DNA from: Acetobacteraceae bacterium
GTDB lineage: Bacteria > Pseudomonadota > Alphaproteobacteria > Acetobacterales > Acetobacteraceae
Assembly (NCBI GenBank): GCA_947371015.1
Contig: CANBNK010000016.1
Coordinates: forward strand, 1 to 64,000
Reading direction: 5' to 3'
Length of the DNA: 64,000 bases
Shown here: in pieces, positions 3,650 to 60,783 of the stretch
Layout: every line of letters begins with the position of its first letter
Numbering within the stretch: the first letter of the stretch is position 1
Program-made: the position numbers and the translations under genes
Notes under the pieces: generated by a model
What the model saw: the letters and a program-made list of their open reading frames with translations, nothing else
Database searches by the model: none
Told to the model about the DNA's origin: nothing

Positions 3650-3860
3650 CCCTGCCCCCGCAGGCGGGGGAGGGCAGGGCAACGGCGCAACGCGCGAGCT
3701 GGCCGAGACAACCCTCCCCCCGCGCGCGGGGAGGGCAGTGCTGGTGGCTGGATCGCACCAACCCGGACGGCACCCTCCCCCCGCGCGCGGGGAGGGCAGC
3801 CCGCCCGGGGTGAAGCCCTTGGCGTCGGCGCCACCCTCCTCCCGCGCGCGGGGAGGGCAG
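3650..3860. repeat. four regularly spaced GC-rich palindromes (CCCTCCCCCCGCGCGCGGGGAGGGCAG)
   Basis: about 27-bp repeats starting near 3650, 3712, 3773, 3834; three intervening segments of 34 bp each; convergent intergenic position. Confidence 0.85.
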
Positions 3861-3889
3861 GGTGGGGGCCGGGGAACGGCGCCCCACAG

Positions 3890-5864: not shown

Positions 5865-5885
5865 GGCCGGCCGCGCCGCCCATTG

Positions 5886-5931
5886 GAGCCTGATCGGCTT
5901 AGGCGAAATCGCCGTAAGCCGTGAATCAGTC
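5886..5931. repeat. Type A palindromic repeat, second near-identical copy
   Basis: matches 2681-2725 with a single internal difference. Confidence 0.85.
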
Positions 5932-5932
5932 C

Positions 5933-6050
5933 AGTGTCCTGATTCCGAAGTCCTGCGGCCTTCGTTATCCGGCCACTAGCCTTTGTTTTCAATGGCCTGC
6001 CTATCCGCTGCGTTCGTGGATAAACCCACGAACTTCGCGGGCAGGACACT
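5933..6050. mobile_element. MITE-like element, 118 bp, 9-bp terminal inverted repeats AGTGTCCTG/CAGGACACT
   Basis: perfect TIRs at 5933-5941 and 6042-6050; internal hairpin GTTCGTGGataaaCCCACGAAC; wedged between a Type A and a Type B repeat. Confidence 0.55.
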
Positions 6051-6056
6051 AGGCAA

Positions 6057-6202
6057 ATGAAGTTCCGACCTGCGGCCCGCCGCTTGCGGGCCGAGCCGCC
6101 GAATGGCCGCCGCGGCTTATGCCGCGTCACGCCAGCGGCGTGCCAATGCACGACGCGATTGAGGGCGCGCGAAGGTGAAGCCTTCGTGCGCCTGGTATCA
6201 GT
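6057..6202 (+). repeat. Type B modular multi-hairpin repeat, copy B1
   Basis: ATGAAGTTCCGACCTGCGGCCCGCCGCTTGCGGGCCG...GGTATCAGT; long near-identical blocks shared with 20354 and 55618. Confidence 0.88.
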
Positions 6203-16477: not shown

Positions 16478-16524
16478 CCTGGGCGCACGGCGGGGGCGGC
16501 GTTTGCGGGGGAATTCGCGCCTAT

Positions 16525-16656
16525 GGTGATTTCACCGGCGACGATCAGACGCTAGCGTCTGTCAGGCGCAGACAGAAGCGCCTGACAGACCCTGGCCATT
16601 CCTCGAGCGGCTGATTCACGCCGCCGGTGATTCCACCGGCGACGATCAGACGCTAG
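16525..16656. repeat. composite palindromic repeat: Type A half - Type D - Type A
   Basis: 31-bp direct repeat (one mismatch) at 16525-16555 and 16626-16656; Type D GTCTGTCAGGCGC-N8-GCGCCTGACAGAC at 16557-16590. Confidence 0.85.
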
Positions 16657-20312: not shown

Positions 20313-20353
20313 GCACAAGCGGCCGGCCGTTGTCGAGCGCCTGATCCGCGCAG

Positions 20354-20576
20354 ATGAAGTTCCGACCTGCGGCCCGCCGCTTGCGGGCCGAGCCGCCGAA
20401 TGGCGTCCGCGGCCTGTGCCTCGTCACGCGTCCGCGTGCTGGCGCACGTCACGCGTCCGCGTGCTGGCGCACGACCCCAAGGGCCGCGGAGGCGGCCCGC
20501 GTCAGGCCAGCGGCGTGCCAATGCACGACGCGATTGAGGGCGCGCGAAGGTGAAACCTTCGTGCGTTGAGCATCAG
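20354..20576 (+). repeat. Type B modular multi-hairpin repeat, copy B2
   Basis: same ends and blocks as B1; contains a perfect 25-bp tandem duplication (20423-20447/20448-20472). Confidence 0.88.
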
Positions 20577-21424: not shown

Positions 21425-21510
21425 CGCTGCCTCCCTGGCGCATCATTCCGGGGCAGGAAAGCATGACGTTGCCGATATGGGCAGGCCAGCCGTAGCGGCT
21501 CACTTACCAA

Positions 21511-21710
21511 CGGCACGAGGCTTTGACTCGTGCCGAGGCGCCGAACGGCGCCCGCGGGTCGCGCCCTTGGGCGCGCGGAACCGCGCGACGCCGCGAAGCC
21601 AAGGAAACCGGAGGTTTCCGCGTCACGCTGAAGGCGTGCGTTCCGCATGGGGACTGAGGGTAAGAAAAAGCTGATACCAGCGGTCAAGGAACTTGGCCGC
21701 TGGTATCAGC
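21511..21710 (+). repeat. Type B modular multi-hairpin repeat, divergent copy B3
   Basis: same module order and loops (CCGAA.GGC, CCAAGG..GGAGG, GACTGAGGG, GGTATCAG) with different stem sequences. Confidence 0.7.
21664..21710 (-). terminator. intrinsic terminator downstream of the MscS-family gene
   Basis: on the minus strand GCTGATACCAGCGG-loop-CCGCTGGTATCAGC (14-bp perfect stem) followed by TTTTTCTTA. Confidence 0.85.
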
Positions 21711-21724
21711 CGTGATGGCCGGCG

Positions 21725-24136
21725 CTACATGCCGGTGCTGGCGCTTTCCATCGGGTTCAGCGGGGTCTCCACGTTCAGCCGCGGCGCCGGCGGCGGCAAG
21801 TCTATCCCCGACAGTGCCAGCTCCACCCGGCAGCGCCGGTTGAGCTCGCGCGCCACCAGCCAGCGCTCGCCCGGCAGGGTCCGCGCCCGCACGCGGAACA
21901 CCATGCCGGCGTCGGTCATCTTCTCCATGCCCGCGGCTTCCACCGCGCCGGGCATCCGCTCATGCCATGCGGGTTCGGCGCGCATGCGTTCGGCAATGGC
22001 GCGGAGCGCGGCGATGACCTTGTCCGGGTCCTCCTGGAAGCCGACGGTCACGTCCACCACCGCGTAGCCGTAGTCGCGCGTCATGTTGGTCACGGTGGTC
22101 ACCGCGCTGAACGGCACCCAGTGGATGCTGCCATCCAGCGCCCGCAATTTGATTGAACGGATGGTCAGGTGCTCCACCACGCCGGTGCGGTCGCCCAGGT
22201 TGACCACGTCGCCGACCGCCACGCTGTCCTCCACCAGCAGGAAGATGCCGGTGATGACGTCCTGCACCAGCTTCTGGCTGCCGAAGCCGATGGCCAGGCC
22301 GATGACGCCGGCGCCGGCGATCAGCGGGCCGATGTTGACGCCGAGTTCCTGCAGCACGTTGAACACGATGAAGGCGAAGACGCCGGTGGCCAGGAAGGCG
22401 CGCAGCACCGGCAGCAGGGTGCGCAGCCGCATGCCGCCCTGCGCCTTCTTGCCCGTCGGCAGGCTGTTGGTCAGGTGGGTCTCGATGGCGCTGTTGGCGG
22501 TTTCCCACACCAGCAGGCCGAGGAAGGCGGTGAAGCCGATCGACAGCGCGGTGCCCAGCAGCTTGTGGCCGGGGTGCCCCGGGCGAAACCAGGCCAGGGT
22601 GCGGAAGCCCCATACCTCGGTCAGCAGCACCAGCGCTACCGCCAGCAGCAGCACGGTCCAGCCGATGCGGAAGGGCGGCACATATTGCTTGGCCAGCCGG
22701 TCCAGCCAGGGGGCGCGGCGGGCCACCTGCTCGCCCGGATGCAACAGTCGGCGCAGCAGCCGGCGCATGCCCTCGTCCAGCAGCTTGGCGGCGACGACCA
22801 CCGCCAGTGTCAGCGCGGTGCCGCGCAGCATGTGGGCGAAGCCGCGCTCCACCCCCACCGCCGCCACCGCCCAGCCCACCAGCAGCCAGCCGACCGCCAC
22901 CAGGTGCCACTGCTCCGCCAGCCGGGCGCGCAGGCCGCGCAGCAGCCGGCGGGTGCTGTCGGTGCCTTCCTCGGCGTCCATCGGCGGCGGCCGCAGCAGC
23001 GCCGCCACGCGGGCGCGCTGCTGGCGGATCATCCGCAGCAGCATCAGCGTCACCACCAGCAGGCCAAGTCGCACCAGCGCGCCATGCATGGCCAGCGGCA
23101 TGCCCACCAGCACCGCCAGCTCCGCCAGCGCATAGCCGCCGATACCGGCCATCAGCATGCGCCGCAGCCAGATGATCAGCCAGGCGGCTATGGCATCCGA
23201 GGCCGGCAGCAGCCGCAGGTGGCTGGAGGCGGGGGAGAGCAGCATGCGCCCCAGCGCCAGCACCATGCGGCCGGCGACGTACAGGTTCACCACCATCAGC
23301 ACCACCAGCTGCGCCGCCGGGCCGGGCCGGACGAAGCCGAGCGCGGCGACCACGGCGCCGCCCATCACCAGCATCGGCAGCAGGTCCAGCCCCAGCCGGG
23401 CCACCACCAGCGGCACCCGGCGCAGCCAGGTCCAAACATTGCCATCCGGCGGCGCCAGGCGGTCCAGCCGGCGTGAGGCGCGGCGCAGCAGCCGCACCAG
23501 CAGGAATTCCAGCGCGAGGCCCAGCGCGCCCAGGCTGAACAGGTTCACCAGTGCTTCCAGCAGCCGCTCCTGCTGCGCCGGGTCCCGCCACAGCGCCATC
23601 ATCCCGGCCCAGAGCGCCGGCAGGTCGGCCATGCTGCGCACCGTCTCGATGGCGATGTCGGCGCCGTGCTGAATCTGCTCGCCGAGATCGACCAACAAGC
23701 GGCCGCCCAGCGTGGTGGGGGTGAACATCGCCTCGCTCTCGGCCGCCGGGGCTGCGCCGGCGGCGGCTGGCGGGCCAGGGGTCGGGCCAGGGGTCGGGCC
23801 AGGGGTCGGGCCATGGGGTGGGGCCGATGTCGCGCTGGCGGGTGCGCCAGGGGCGGAGGTGGCGGCCGGGGTCGCACCTGGCGGGCGCGTGGCGGTGCCC
23901 GCCGGTGTCATGGCGCGCTCGGCGGCGGCCAGCGCCTCCACCAGCCGCAGCAGGTCGGCCCGGCGCGCGGGGTCGCGCAGCACCTCCGCCAGGTGTTCCA
24001 GCGTGGCCGAGGTCACCGCCGCCGGGCGCGCCGCGGCAGCCGGTGCGGCGGGCGGGGCGGGTGCCTGCGCCCGGGCCGCCAGGCCACAACCCAGCAGCAG
24101 CGCCAAGACAAGCGGGAGAAAACGGAACGGTCTCAT
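21725..24136 (-). CDS. MscS-family mechanosensitive ion channel (DUF3772-type)
   Basis: signal peptide, many TMs, GAGVIGLAIGFGSQKLVQDVITGIFLLVEDSVAVGDVV pore/beta domain. Confidence 0.9.
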   Translation of the reverse strand: MRPFRFLPLVLALLLGCGLAARAQAPAPPAAPAAAARPAAVTSATLEHLAEVLRDPARRADLLRLVEALAAAERAMTPAGTATRPPGATPAATSAPGAPASATSAPPHGPTPGPTPGPTPGPPAAAGAAPAAESEAMFTPTTLGGRLLVDLGEQIQHGADIAIETVRSMADLPALWAGMMALWRDPAQQERLLEALVNLFSLGALGLALEFLLVRLLRRASRRLDRLAPPDGNVWTWLRRVPLVVARLGLDLLPMLVMGGAVVAALGFVRPGPAAQLVVLMVVNLYVAGRMVLALGRMLLSPASSHLRLLPASDAIAAWLIIWLRRMLMAGIGGYALAELAVLVGMPLAMHGALVRLGLLVVTLMLLRMIRQQRARVAALLRPPPMDAEEGTDSTRRLLRGLRARLAEQWHLVAVGWLLVGWAVAAVGVERGFAHMLRGTALTLAVVVAAKLLDEGMRRLLRRLLHPGEQVARRAPWLDRLAKQYVPPFRIGWTVLLLAVALVLLTEVWGFRTLAWFRPGHPGHKLLGTALSIGFTAFLGLLVWETANSAIETHLTNSLPTGKKAQGGMRLRTLLPVLRAFLATGVFAFIVFNVLQELGVNIGPLIAGAGVIGLAIGFGSQKLVQDVITGIFLLVEDSVAVGDVVNLGDRTGVVEHLTIRSIKLRALDGSIHWVPFSAVTTVTNMTRDYGYAVVDVTVGFQEDPDKVIAALRAIAERMRAEPAWHERMPGAVEAAGMEKMTDAGMVFRVRARTLPGERWLVARELNRRCRVELALSGIDLPPPAPRLNVETPLNPMESASTGM

Positions 24137-31880: not shown

Positions 31881-31965
31881 CAGGCGGGCCGAAAGGCCCG
31901 TGAGGCCGTCACGCCAAAGGCGTGCCAACGGCGTGCCAACGGCGTGCCTGCGGCACGACGCGCGC
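31881..31965 (+). repeat. Type B repeat, degenerate copy B5
   Basis: GGGCCGAAAGGCCCG...GTCACGCCAAAGGCGTGCCAACGGCGTGCCAACGGCGTGCC...GGCACGACGCG. Confidence 0.55.
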
Positions 31966-35662: not shown

Positions 35663-35786
35663 GGGCGGCTCCCGCGCGCTCGGGCTCAGGGCTTCTAGCC
35701 GCGCCCCGGCACGGGCACAAGGCACGCTGGCGGCGCCCGGGCGCGGTCAAAAGCGCCCGGGCGACGCCAGCTGTTTCTTTGAGCGG

Positions 35787-35826
35787 GTGATTCACGCCTT
35801 TCGGCGCTGCCGCCTCAGGCGATCAC
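35787..35826. repeat. Type A palindromic repeat
   Basis: GTGATTCACGCC...GGCGCTGCCGCC...GGCGATCAC. Confidence 0.7.
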
Positions 35827-35850
35827 GCGCAAACGGGTGGAGGGGACGCG

Positions 35851-36935: not shown

Positions 36936-37907
36936 ATGCTCAAGCGTGCCCTGCCGCTTTTTGCGGCAATATTCTGCCTGTTTTCCGTGCCGCAAGCGGG
37001 TGCGCAAGCTTGGCCCGACCACCCCATCCGCATCGTCGTGGTCTTCCCGCCCGGCGGCTCGTCGGACATCGTCGCCCGCGTGCTGGCCGAGGCGATGACG
37101 CCGAAGCTGGGCCAGCGCGTGGTGGTGGACAACCGCCCCGGCGCCGGCGGCACCCTGGCGGCGCTGCATGTCAGCCAGCAGCCGGCCGATGGCTACACGC
37201 TGATGCTGAGCAACAACGCCCCCATCACCACCAGCCCGCCGATCTACCCCAATGCCGGCTACAATCCGGTCACCAGCTTCACCCATGTGTCCTACATCGG
37301 CATCACGCCGCTGGTCATCATGACCAACCTGGCGGTGCCGGTGACCAACATGGCCATGTTGCAGACCTGGCTGCGGGCGCAGCGCAACCCGGTGGCGTTT
37401 GGCAGTTCGGGCGCCGGCTCGGTCGGCCATGTGCTGGGCACCATGTTCAGCAGCCAGACCGGCATCACGCTGAACCATGTGCCCTATCGCGGCTCCACGC
37501 CGATGCAGGCGGACCTGCTGGGCGGCTCCATCCCGCTGGCCTTCGACCCGATGCCGGACAACTCCGAGAACATCAAGGCCGGCCGGGTCCGCGCCCATGC
37601 GGTCACCTCGGCCGCGCGGCAGCCCAGCCTCCCGGACGTGCCGACCACGGCCGAGGTCGGCCTGCCCGGCCTGGTCATCGGCAACTGGCTCGGCCTCAGC
37701 GCCCCGGCCGGGCTGCCGCCGGCCATCCTGGCGCGGCTGCATGCGGAAGTGGCCGCGGCGATGCAGACCCAGCTGATGCGCGACCGCCTGGCCACGGTGG
37801 GCATTGTCGGTGGCAGCATGACGCAGCCGGAATTCGCCGCCTTCATCGAGAAGGATGTGCGCGAGGTCGGCGGCGCCATCCGCGCCATGGGCATTACCGC
37901 GAACTGA
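36936..37907 (+). CDS. TctC/Bug family substrate-binding protein
   Basis: IRIVVVFPPGGSSDIVARVLAE, VDNRPGAGG, HVPYRGSTP. Confidence 0.92.
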   Translation: MLKRALPLFAAIFCLFSVPQAGAQAWPDHPIRIVVVFPPGGSSDIVARVLAEAMTPKLGQRVVVDNRPGAGGTLAALHVSQQPADGYTLMLSNNAPITTSPPIYPNAGYNPVTSFTHVSYIGITPLVIMTNLAVPVTNMAMLQTWLRAQRNPVAFGSSGAGSVGHVLGTMFSSQTGITLNHVPYRGSTPMQADLLGGSIPLAFDPMPDNSENIKAGRVRAHAVTSAARQPSLPDVPTTAEVGLPGLVIGNWLGLSAPAGLPPAILARLHAEVAAAMQTQLMRDRLATVGIVGGSMTQPEFAAFIEKDVREVGGAIRAMGITAN

Positions 37908-37942
37908 ACGCAGCGGCCCTTCTGGGCCGCTGCGTTCAGTTC
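37901..37942 (+). terminator. 19-bp perfect hairpin including the Bug stop codon
   Basis: GAACTGAACGCAGCGGCCC-TTCT-GGGCCGCTGCGTTCAGTTC then GCTGCTTTTC. Confidence 0.75.
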
Positions 37943-38050
37943 GCTGCTTTTCGGCCCTCAAGCGCCGGGCGGCCGCATCCGCGGCCTTGGCTTACGCGCC
38001 ACAAGGCGCGACGGCCATTCGGCCTTGCGGCCCGCCTTCGTCGGGCCGGG
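37924..38050 (-). repeat. Type B modular multi-hairpin repeat, inverted copy B4
   Basis: reverse complement reads CGGCCCGACGAAGGCGGGCCGCAAGGCCGAATGGCC...GCGCCTTGTGGCGCG...CCAAGGCCGCGGATGCGGCC...CTTGAGGGCC. Confidence 0.72.
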
Positions 38051-38195
38051 GCGCTTGGTTTGCGCGGAGGCGCGGCGGCCGGGCGGGTCAGGGTGCCTCG
38101 CTGGCCCGGGAAGCCGCGGCGGAGGTCGGCGCGGCTGGCTGGCCTTCTCCCGTCGCCGGCGCTACATCGCCGGCCGACAGTCCCGGAAGGCCCGC

Positions 38196-54025: not shown

Positions 54026-54041
54026 GCTATCCTCCGATGCC

Positions 54042-54199
54042 ACTGATTCACCGCCCGCGGCGATTCCGCCTTGGCCGATCAGGCGCTGGTTGGGCGACTG
54101 ATTCACGGCCCACGGCGATTCCGCCTTGGCCGATCAGGCGCTGGTTGAGCGACTGATTCACCGCCCACGGCGATTCCGCCTTGGCCTATCAGGCGCTAA
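54042..54199. repeat. tandem array of three 55-bp Type A palindromic repeats
   Basis: units begin at 54042, 54097, 54152: ACTGATTCAC(C/G)GCCC(G/A)CGGCGATTCCGCCTTGGCC(G/T)ATCAGGCGCT. Confidence 0.95.
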
Positions 54200-54242
54200 G
54201 CCTCCACTGTAGCAACTGCGATACGGCAAAACGGGGGCGGCG

Positions 54243-55607: not shown

Positions 55608-55788
55608 TACCAAGCAGATGAAGTTCCGACCTGTGGCCCGCCGCTTGCAGGCCGAGCCGCCGAATGGCGGCCGCGGCTTATGCCGCGTCACGCGTCAGCG
55701 TGCCGTCGCACGACGCCAAGGGCCGCGGAGGCGGCCCGCCCGGCGACTGAGGGCGCGCGAAGGTGAAACCTTCGCGCGCTTGGTATCA
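55608..55788 (+). repeat. Type B modular multi-hairpin repeat, copy B6
   Basis: same blocks as B1/B2; 8-bp terminal inverted repeats TACCAAGC (55608-55615)/GCTTGGTA (55778-55785). Confidence 0.88.
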
Positions 55789-60648: not shown

Positions 60649-60667
60649 ATTGCGGCAAATTCTTTCG

Positions 60668-60772
60668 CTAGAGTCTGTCAGGCGCAGACAGAAGCGCCCG
60701 ACAGACTCTAGCCCCTTGTTTTGTCGTGTGATTCACGTCTTCGGCGATTCCGCCTGCGACGATCACACTCTA
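60668..60772. repeat. composite palindromic repeat Type D + Type A
   Basis: CTAGAGTCTGTCAGGCGC..GCGCCCGACAGACTCTAG then GTGTGATTCACG..CGGCGATTCCGCC..CGATCACAC. Confidence 0.85.
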
Positions 60773-60783
60773 AAATCGGGTTG

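Follow-up and report, generated by a model that had tools for sequence, protein, structure and literature searches.

A mosaic MITE-like repeat with a conserved multi-hairpin core at gene 3' ends in an Acetobacteraceae bacterium and other Alphaproteobacteria

Six hairpin-rich intergenic places lie in a window of 64,000 nucleotides (the whole stretch of DNA that was analysed, from contig 16 of a 5.37 Mb assembly in 248 contigs), which raises the question of whether they belong to one family of repeats and, if so, what spreads and preserves it. The answer proposed here, which we consider probable, is a repeat of two layers, in which a MITE-like subfamily (B), with terminal inverted repeats (TIRs) and a TNA target, carries an older alphaproteobacterial hairpin core and is tolerated at gene 3' ends. 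The first-pass annotation of this DNA had listed six copies. On re-reading the sequence all six places are real, but their ranks differ, three being full members, two divergent ones and one a solo module. Two covariance models were used, R1 for the first 88 nt (5' domain) and R2 for the core, and the features of the window are the following.

6047-6197, plus strand: full B-subfamily copy 1 (R1 104.6 bits; ends set by pattern)
20344-20572, plus strand: full B-subfamily copy 2, called B2 (R1 87.1 bits), with a 25-bp module duplication at about 20424-20473
55608-55785, plus strand: full B-subfamily copy 3, at the B6 site (R1 107.8 bits, R2 52.1 bits)
21505-21705, plus strand: divergent member (R1 30.8 bits, R2 38.6 bits)
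21662-21710, minus strand: antisense intrinsic-terminator shape at the 3' end of the 21505 copy, GCTGATACCAGCGGCCAAG-TTCC-TTGACCGCTGGTATCAGC-TTTTTCTTA
37895-38060, minus strand: divergent member, inverted (R2 92.5 bits, E 8.1e-19; R1 61.2 bits)
37899-37952, plus strand: terminator-like hairpin with T-tract at the end of gene 36936-37907, abutting the core, GCGAACTGAACGCAGCGGCCC-TTCT-GGGCCGCTGCGTTCAGTTCGC-TGCTTTTC
31881-31965, plus strand: solo or partial copy with only the GTCACGCC...GCACGACGC hairpin module and an internal duplication; likeness by sequence

The copies near 6.05, 20.35 and 55.6 kb closely resemble one another, all three being full members of one subfamily (87-108 bits with R1 for the first, second and sixth places), whereas the 21505 and 37895 copies are divergent relatives with different stem sequences; within the window R1 gives 61 bits (E 5.5e-15) to the latter, annotated earlier from 37924, and 31 bits (E 1.2e-6) to the former, annotated from 21511. 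The 31881 copy is matched in the window by neither R1 (E up to 1) nor R2 (E up to 0.1), and all it has in common with the family is the module GTCACGCC...GGCGTGCC...GCACGACGC. In the 55608 copy, position 55608 is the first T of TACC, followed by the hairpins H1 (55634-55654), H2 (55656-55671) and H3 (55672-55687), the core to 55754 and the 3' hairpin with the TIR to 55785; then comes TCA (55786-55788), the stop codon of a convergent gene. Copy 1 is a short form with the order H1-H2-H3-CGTC module-TGAGGGC-3' hairpin; its 5' TIR is decayed (CACTAGGCAAATGAAG) and its 3' TIR is intact and followed by TCA. Copy B2 also has a decayed 5' TIR, and the TCA at 20573-20575 directly after it is the stop of a convergent minus-strand gene starting at 20573. 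The 21505 copy reads TACCAACGG...H1 (GGCACGAG/CTCGTGCC)-H2-H3 with a nested hairpin-AAGCCAAG-H4-module-TGAGGG-terminal hairpin and ends in TGGTA. Finally, the 37895 copy contains the top core match in the window (38030-37954), and its 3' hairpin overlaps the stop codon of the plus-strand gene 36936-37907. The terminator-like hairpin at 37899-37952 takes in the last codons and the stop of this gene, as if the gene end had been copied into the inverted arm.

The proposal that hairpin modules are gained and lost individually is borne out by the perfect 25-bp duplication in B2, confirmed by a repeat spacing of 25, and by a copy elsewhere in the host genome (L015) with still more units of the same module. 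The optional module, GTCACGC...GCGTGCC..GCACGACGC, is seen at 20424-20473, at 31881-31965 and in copies on L002 and L015; within the element it sits either ahead of GCCAAG or in the loop of H5, and it also occurs alone. It gives the impression of a mini-repeat with CGTC ends, nested in the element and spreading on its own. Also, a small protein was considered for these copies and rejected: the ATG frame is unconserved (CACGAAG in many copies) and is broken by the 25-bp modules, the ATG being no start codon.

These CGTC ends recall the CGTC-tagged REPs, which are mainly alphaproteobacterial, lie 3' of genes and have no known transposase (Di Nocera 2013, PMC3733652). The whole family could then be such REPs in mosaic arrangement, as the optional module (CGTCACGCC-AAA-GGCGTGC...GCACGACG) has CGTC at its start and the complement at its end, as a head-to-head CGTC dimer would, and the class, the 3' placement and the want of a known transposase are alike in both. 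However, CGTC REPs are single palindromes of 8-9 bp whose stem starts with A-T pairs and which have a CCA tail, features that the module does not have, and none are reported in Acetobacteraceae (PMC3733652). Moreover, the tag belongs to the optional module only, the core being free of it, and the core architecture is absent from those REPs, so that this explanation is quite unlikely. The mosaic elements BIME, BOX and RIME resemble the present repeat in being modular and intergenic, with hairpin modules gained and lost; in sequence and architecture they are, as far as known, unrelated to it.

What the MITE-like element and its relatives have in common is the core, of about 76 nt, with the order H2-H3-AGCCAAG-H4-GCCC/GGGC and a free hairpin, H1, ahead of it. 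Divergent copies agree in architecture and not in sequence: H1 (of free sequence), CGAG or GCAAG, H2 (loop GANN), H3, AAGCCAAG, H4 (loop GGAN) and GCCC-GGCGNYTGA-GGGC. In other words, the stem sequences are freely exchanged and the loops (GANN, GGAN) and the joint AGCCAAG are conserved. In an alignment of 31 diverse cores (A2), pairing is found in 89.8% of cells against 69.5 +/- 1.1 after shuffling that ignores the relatedness of the sequences. The covariation asked of the stems is likewise strong, 0.419 against 0.115 +/- 0.013 for the shuffles and at most 0.079 for slid structures, a slide control that is somewhat favourable since the structure was proposed from the same sequences and the rows were picked for a recognisable H2. 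Across some 190 copies, three pairs of H2 are split about evenly between GC and CG and are seldom mismatched, a switching that relatedness alone would hardly produce. A strong H1 hairpin, which lies outside the model, is present in 72 of 106 copies (the distinct copies with any hairpin found, among 214 examined) against 10 of 214 random places. In the B subfamily, changes are half as frequent in stems (5.6%) as in loops (12.4%), and half of those in stems are compensated in pairs. Conservation of the structure is shown by covariation.

The genome is very GC-rich (70%) and contains many other palindromic repeats, and the hairpins might accordingly be taken for independent GC-rich palindromes without common descent. 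Covariation together with the conserved unpaired motifs excludes this reading, which is hardly credible: hairpin order, loops and joints are common to the copies, R2 reaches E-values down to 2e-17 per genome, and all 12 carriers in a sample of the phylum belong to the same class.

The claim that the family extends beyond the window is confirmed by the covariance models, both in the host and in its relatives. In the host genome R1 gives 49 matches at E<0.1, 17 of them above 80 bits, and R2 gives 54 at E<0.01, which amounts to about 50 copies overall. Copies matched by R1 are present in all five congeners (11-41), in a genome of another genus (G028, 60 copies), in G016, G025 and G032 and weakly in G015, and in no other searched genus of the host's family. 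With R2, 36 of 385 sampled genomes of the class Alphaproteobacteria are positive, as are 12 of 399 in the phylum sample, those 12 all of that same class; 12 candidates were scored per genome in both of these searches, and their copy numbers are lower bounds. A pattern made from the last part of the core matched at least 118 stretches over 84,980 species. The named genera among the matches listed are all alphaproteobacterial (Roseomonas, Roseococcus, Falsiroseomonas, Azospirillum, Nitrospirillum, Telmatospirillum, Erythrobacter, Croceicoccus, Sphingomonas and others), and one record listed is labelled only Proteobacteria. Many of the listed matches also have H1 to H3, although these were absent from the pattern; the joint and the GCCC/GGGC stem were required by it, so that their conservation in the matched set is partly selection. 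The core is therefore old and spread over many families of Alphaproteobacteria.

No Rfam 15 family reaches its gathering score on any core copy, the sub-threshold matches being due to chance, and no literature on the repeat family or the core sequence was found in open-access PubMed Central. The description of the family as undescribed thus holds for these two sources. Rfam RNA families are like the core in having a covarying multi-hairpin structure, and none match it. With this result, the copies found by R1 and R2 and the covariation, the original view of a modular family of multi-hairpin intergenic repeats is well founded, and a covarying repeat family in many families of one bacterial class turns out to be absent from Rfam 15.

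Regarding its spread, the ends of the B subfamily are informative. The ends given earlier, ATGAAGTT and GGTATCAGT, are wrong: intact copies start about 12 nt earlier, at TACCAAGCNCANGAAG (the TIRs beginning TACCAAGC), and end in CTTCGTGCGCTTGGTA, the two being inverted-complementary as in a MITE. These TIRs (TACCAAGCGCACGAAG...CTTCGTGCGCTTGGTA) had been missed. The 3' TIR doubles as the outer arm of a local hairpin, GCGCGAAGG-TGAAA-CCTTCGTGCGC. In the host genome the TIR pattern has 29 matches against 0 for the same pattern read backwards, and the 5'-end pattern has 17 against 7, those with one mismatch at most being all true copies; these counts exclude chance as the origin of the repeat. The TIR-bearing copies measure 118-253 bp and have no coding capacity.

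Target duplication was assessed in 39 copies in which the core and both ends could be recognised; they come from the host, from four of its congeners and from G028, a genome of another genus. Identical 3-bp flanks are found in 22 of the 39, against a mean of 7.8 and a maximum of 15 with shuffled partners (0 of 2000 as high); the ends were set by a fuzzy motif with the flanks not looked at, the duplication having first been spotted by eye in some of the same copies. One insertion shared by two species (L004 and L049) entered this count twice, as a non-match. Further out, the adjoining three bases match in no more than 3 of 39. The consensus target over the 39 copies is C|TNA|G, with T in 35 and A in 32 of the left flanks, and T in 32, A in 34 and then G in 27 of the right ones. 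A reading of the ends as a TA-only target, Tc1/mariner-like, was replaced by the 3-bp TNA duplication after this flank count. Outside the count, TTA/TTA (L107 and L172) and TGA/TGA (L086) were seen by eye in other genera. In the three full copies of the window the flanks are decayed, with two of three bases agreeing at best and no perfect duplication. In many cases the TNA beside a copy is a stop codon or the complement of one, for example at 20573-20575 and at 55786-55788.

Moreover, orthologous sites are empty or differently filled in congeneric species (G001, G002 and G004). At the B2 site, G001 is without the element and its two convergent stops abut (CTGATCAG), and in G004 the core copy is shorter and its 3' hairpin is another one. 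At the B6 site, the stops of G002 are about 20 nt apart, with no element between them, G003 and G005 have other sequence, and G004 has a longer region that includes a related copy. TIRs, 3-bp flank duplication and empty sites in congeners together make the B subfamily a MITE-like mobile element. Mobility is shown for this TIR-bearing form only, because the cores of Sphingomonadales have neither TIRs nor a target duplication (mean longest direct repeat 5.5, against 5.44 with swapped partners).

Like known bacterial MITEs (NEMIS/Correia, ERIC, RUP, Nezha), the repeat falls within 70-300 bp, encodes nothing, has TIRs and a short target duplication, is placed next to genes and folds strongly. Unlike them, it makes a 3-bp TNA duplication, has TIRs starting TACC and comes with no parent IS found; also, it carries a multi-hairpin core whose stems are freely exchanged and which occurs class-wide with and without TIRs. 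It is, then, a mosaic, MITE-like repeat whose multi-hairpin core is unusually well conserved, and it joins two things usually kept apart, structure-conserved multi-hairpin elements and transposition with TIRs and target duplication.

Among transposons, TIRs together with a 3-bp duplication are characteristic of the DDE type. A search in the host and its relatives, by the TIR pattern and at PF01609 and PF13340 loci (part of the loci, in draft genomes), gave no transposase with TACC TIRs. IS5-type genes occur in most of the genomes searched, but the IS elements seen in them start with GAG and not with TACC. For example, the IS element L358 in G028 has GAG-type TIRs with TGA on both sides; judging from this sequence, a relative seems to have an enzyme that inserts at TNA. 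Duplication of a 3-bp TNA is characteristic of the IS1031 group of the IS5 family (PMC12016507). The TIRs of related IS elements start with GAGCC in the genomes searched or with GAACC (PMC12016507). The repeat shares this duplication with the IS1031 group and differs from it in its TIRs, which start with TACC rather than GAG or GAA, and in encoding nothing. Movement would be due to an IS5/IS1031-like transposase supplied in trans.

Another mover to be weighed is RAYT, the IS200/IS605-like Y1 transposase acting on single-stranded hairpins, which would make the family a repeat of REP/BIME type. Hairpins beside a conserved unpaired tag, location 3' of genes and head-to-head pairs in Sphingomonadales are in line with it. 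However, a Y1_Tnp gene is missing from 15 of the 16 carrier genomes searched (0 of 10 carriers in the host's family, the host included, and 1 of 6 other carriers have one), no GTAG tag stands at the hairpin foot in the aligned core, and the TIRs and 3-bp duplication point to DDE transposons. This makes RAYT very unlikely for the family, and for the host, which has no such gene, it is excluded.

The B subfamily would thus be a non-autonomous DNA transposon of about 120-250 bp, with imperfect TIRs of about 16 bp starting TACC, that goes into C|TNA|G sites and duplicates 3 bp of the target. The transposon would carry the older core, a chain of hairpins found also without TIRs, for example in Sphingomonadales. 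Copies would survive at gene 3' ends because TNA matches stop codons (TGA or TAA, or TCA or TTA for the other strand), so that a stop hit by insertion is regenerated on both sides, leaving the gene intact. The TNA target offers a simple reason why elements can sit exactly at stop codons without harm.

The surroundings of the copies agree with such placement. Gene context was taken from our own codon-usage gene caller (not curated, with partly draft genomes). Among the 179 copies with two neighbours, 67 lie between convergent genes, 62 are antisense to co-directional genes, 37 are sense and 13 lie between divergent genes, compared with 120, 98, 143 and 106, respectively, for baseline intergenic regions of at least 100 bp; divergent regions thus hold 7% of the copies (13/179) against 23% of the baseline (106/467). 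Only 14 copies are inside a called gene. In 98 of the 179, no more than 60 nt separate the 3' end of the core from that of an opposite-strand gene. For instance, a Niveispirillum copy is flanked by two halogenase genes, and its 3' end is 19 nt away from an opposite-strand stop codon; the copies on sphingomonad and azospirillal megaplasmids have no annotated gene beneath them. As separate observations, core copies occur just past an RNase P RNA gene (L054, 934-1360) and near an SRP RNA gene (L150, 4060-4154), and the cores in L144, L145, L190 and L118 form head-to-head pairs about 50-85 nt apart, with their 3' ends outward.

The plus strand after the core is rich in A (40-44% in the first 10 nt, about 17% further on). 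An A-tract directly follows the core in 47 of 185 copies, where random windows would give about 1.4 and the T-tract control gives 2; in Sphingomonadales this tract is strand-specific and the motif AAACAAA follows the core. An antisense terminator shape, that is, an A-tract and then a hairpin, abuts the core in 15 of 185 copies and in 0 random windows, and goes with a minority of copies only. In the window, the 21505 and 37895 copies belong to this type. At the former, the shape at 21662-21710 lies about 15 nt past the stop codon of the minus-strand gene 21725-24136, and the sister copies L198, L206, L208 and L213 have the antisense terminator arranged in the same way.

A different explanation of the core has to be weighed at this point, namely that it is a conserved functional RNA (a small RNA or a 3'-UTR element) and that the TIR-bearing copies are ordinary transposons that captured it. 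The strong covariation, the loops and joint conserved across about 20 families, the strand-specific A-tract with AAACAAA in Sphingomonadales and the steady placement at gene 3' ends speak for it. A strand test, however, reveals no excess of G-U over A-C mismatches (31:30 in H1 and 39:43 in H2-H4), such as would be expected were the plus strand kept as RNA; since the two are equally common, nothing suggests that individual copies are maintained in that form. Also, presence is patchy, copy number varies widely between sister genera, and copies are missing at orthologous sites. On balance a functional RNA is possible, although doubtful. From the mismatches and the stem changes within the B subfamily we infer that structure is selected in propagating copies and that individual copies then decay neutrally.

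Returning to a MITE-like element with an older core, the 3' end of the core usually adjoins an opposite-strand stop codon, in some copies with a terminator hairpin and T-tract in between, and the structure may act in the 3' untranslated region as a transcript end, either as a terminator or as a barrier to 3' exonucleases. Our best guess is that this role at the 3' end makes insertion tolerable or mildly useful. A bolder version, which we put forward only tentatively and hold to be improbable as it stands, is that the core is an ancient class-specific element propagated as a transposable 3'-end (terminator or insulator) module, delivered into stop codons without breaking the gene. The family provides a system for asking whether gene-end repeats are mere survivors or suppliers of transcript 3' ends.

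Finally, the window contains other repeats. Another palindromic family (GACTGATTCACGGC...GATTCCGCC...GATCAGGC) is found at 2664-2725, 5870-5931, 16513-16656, 35783-35837, 54039-54203 and 60731-60773, with three tandem 55-bp copies in the fifth of these places. The palindromic repeat CGCTAGCGTCTGTCAGGCGCAGACAGAAGCGCCTGACAG, at 16550-16597, 35725-35772 and 60666-60713, adjoins this family, and ACCCTCCCCCCGCGCGCGGGGAGGG occurs three times with 61-bp spacing at 3711-3873.
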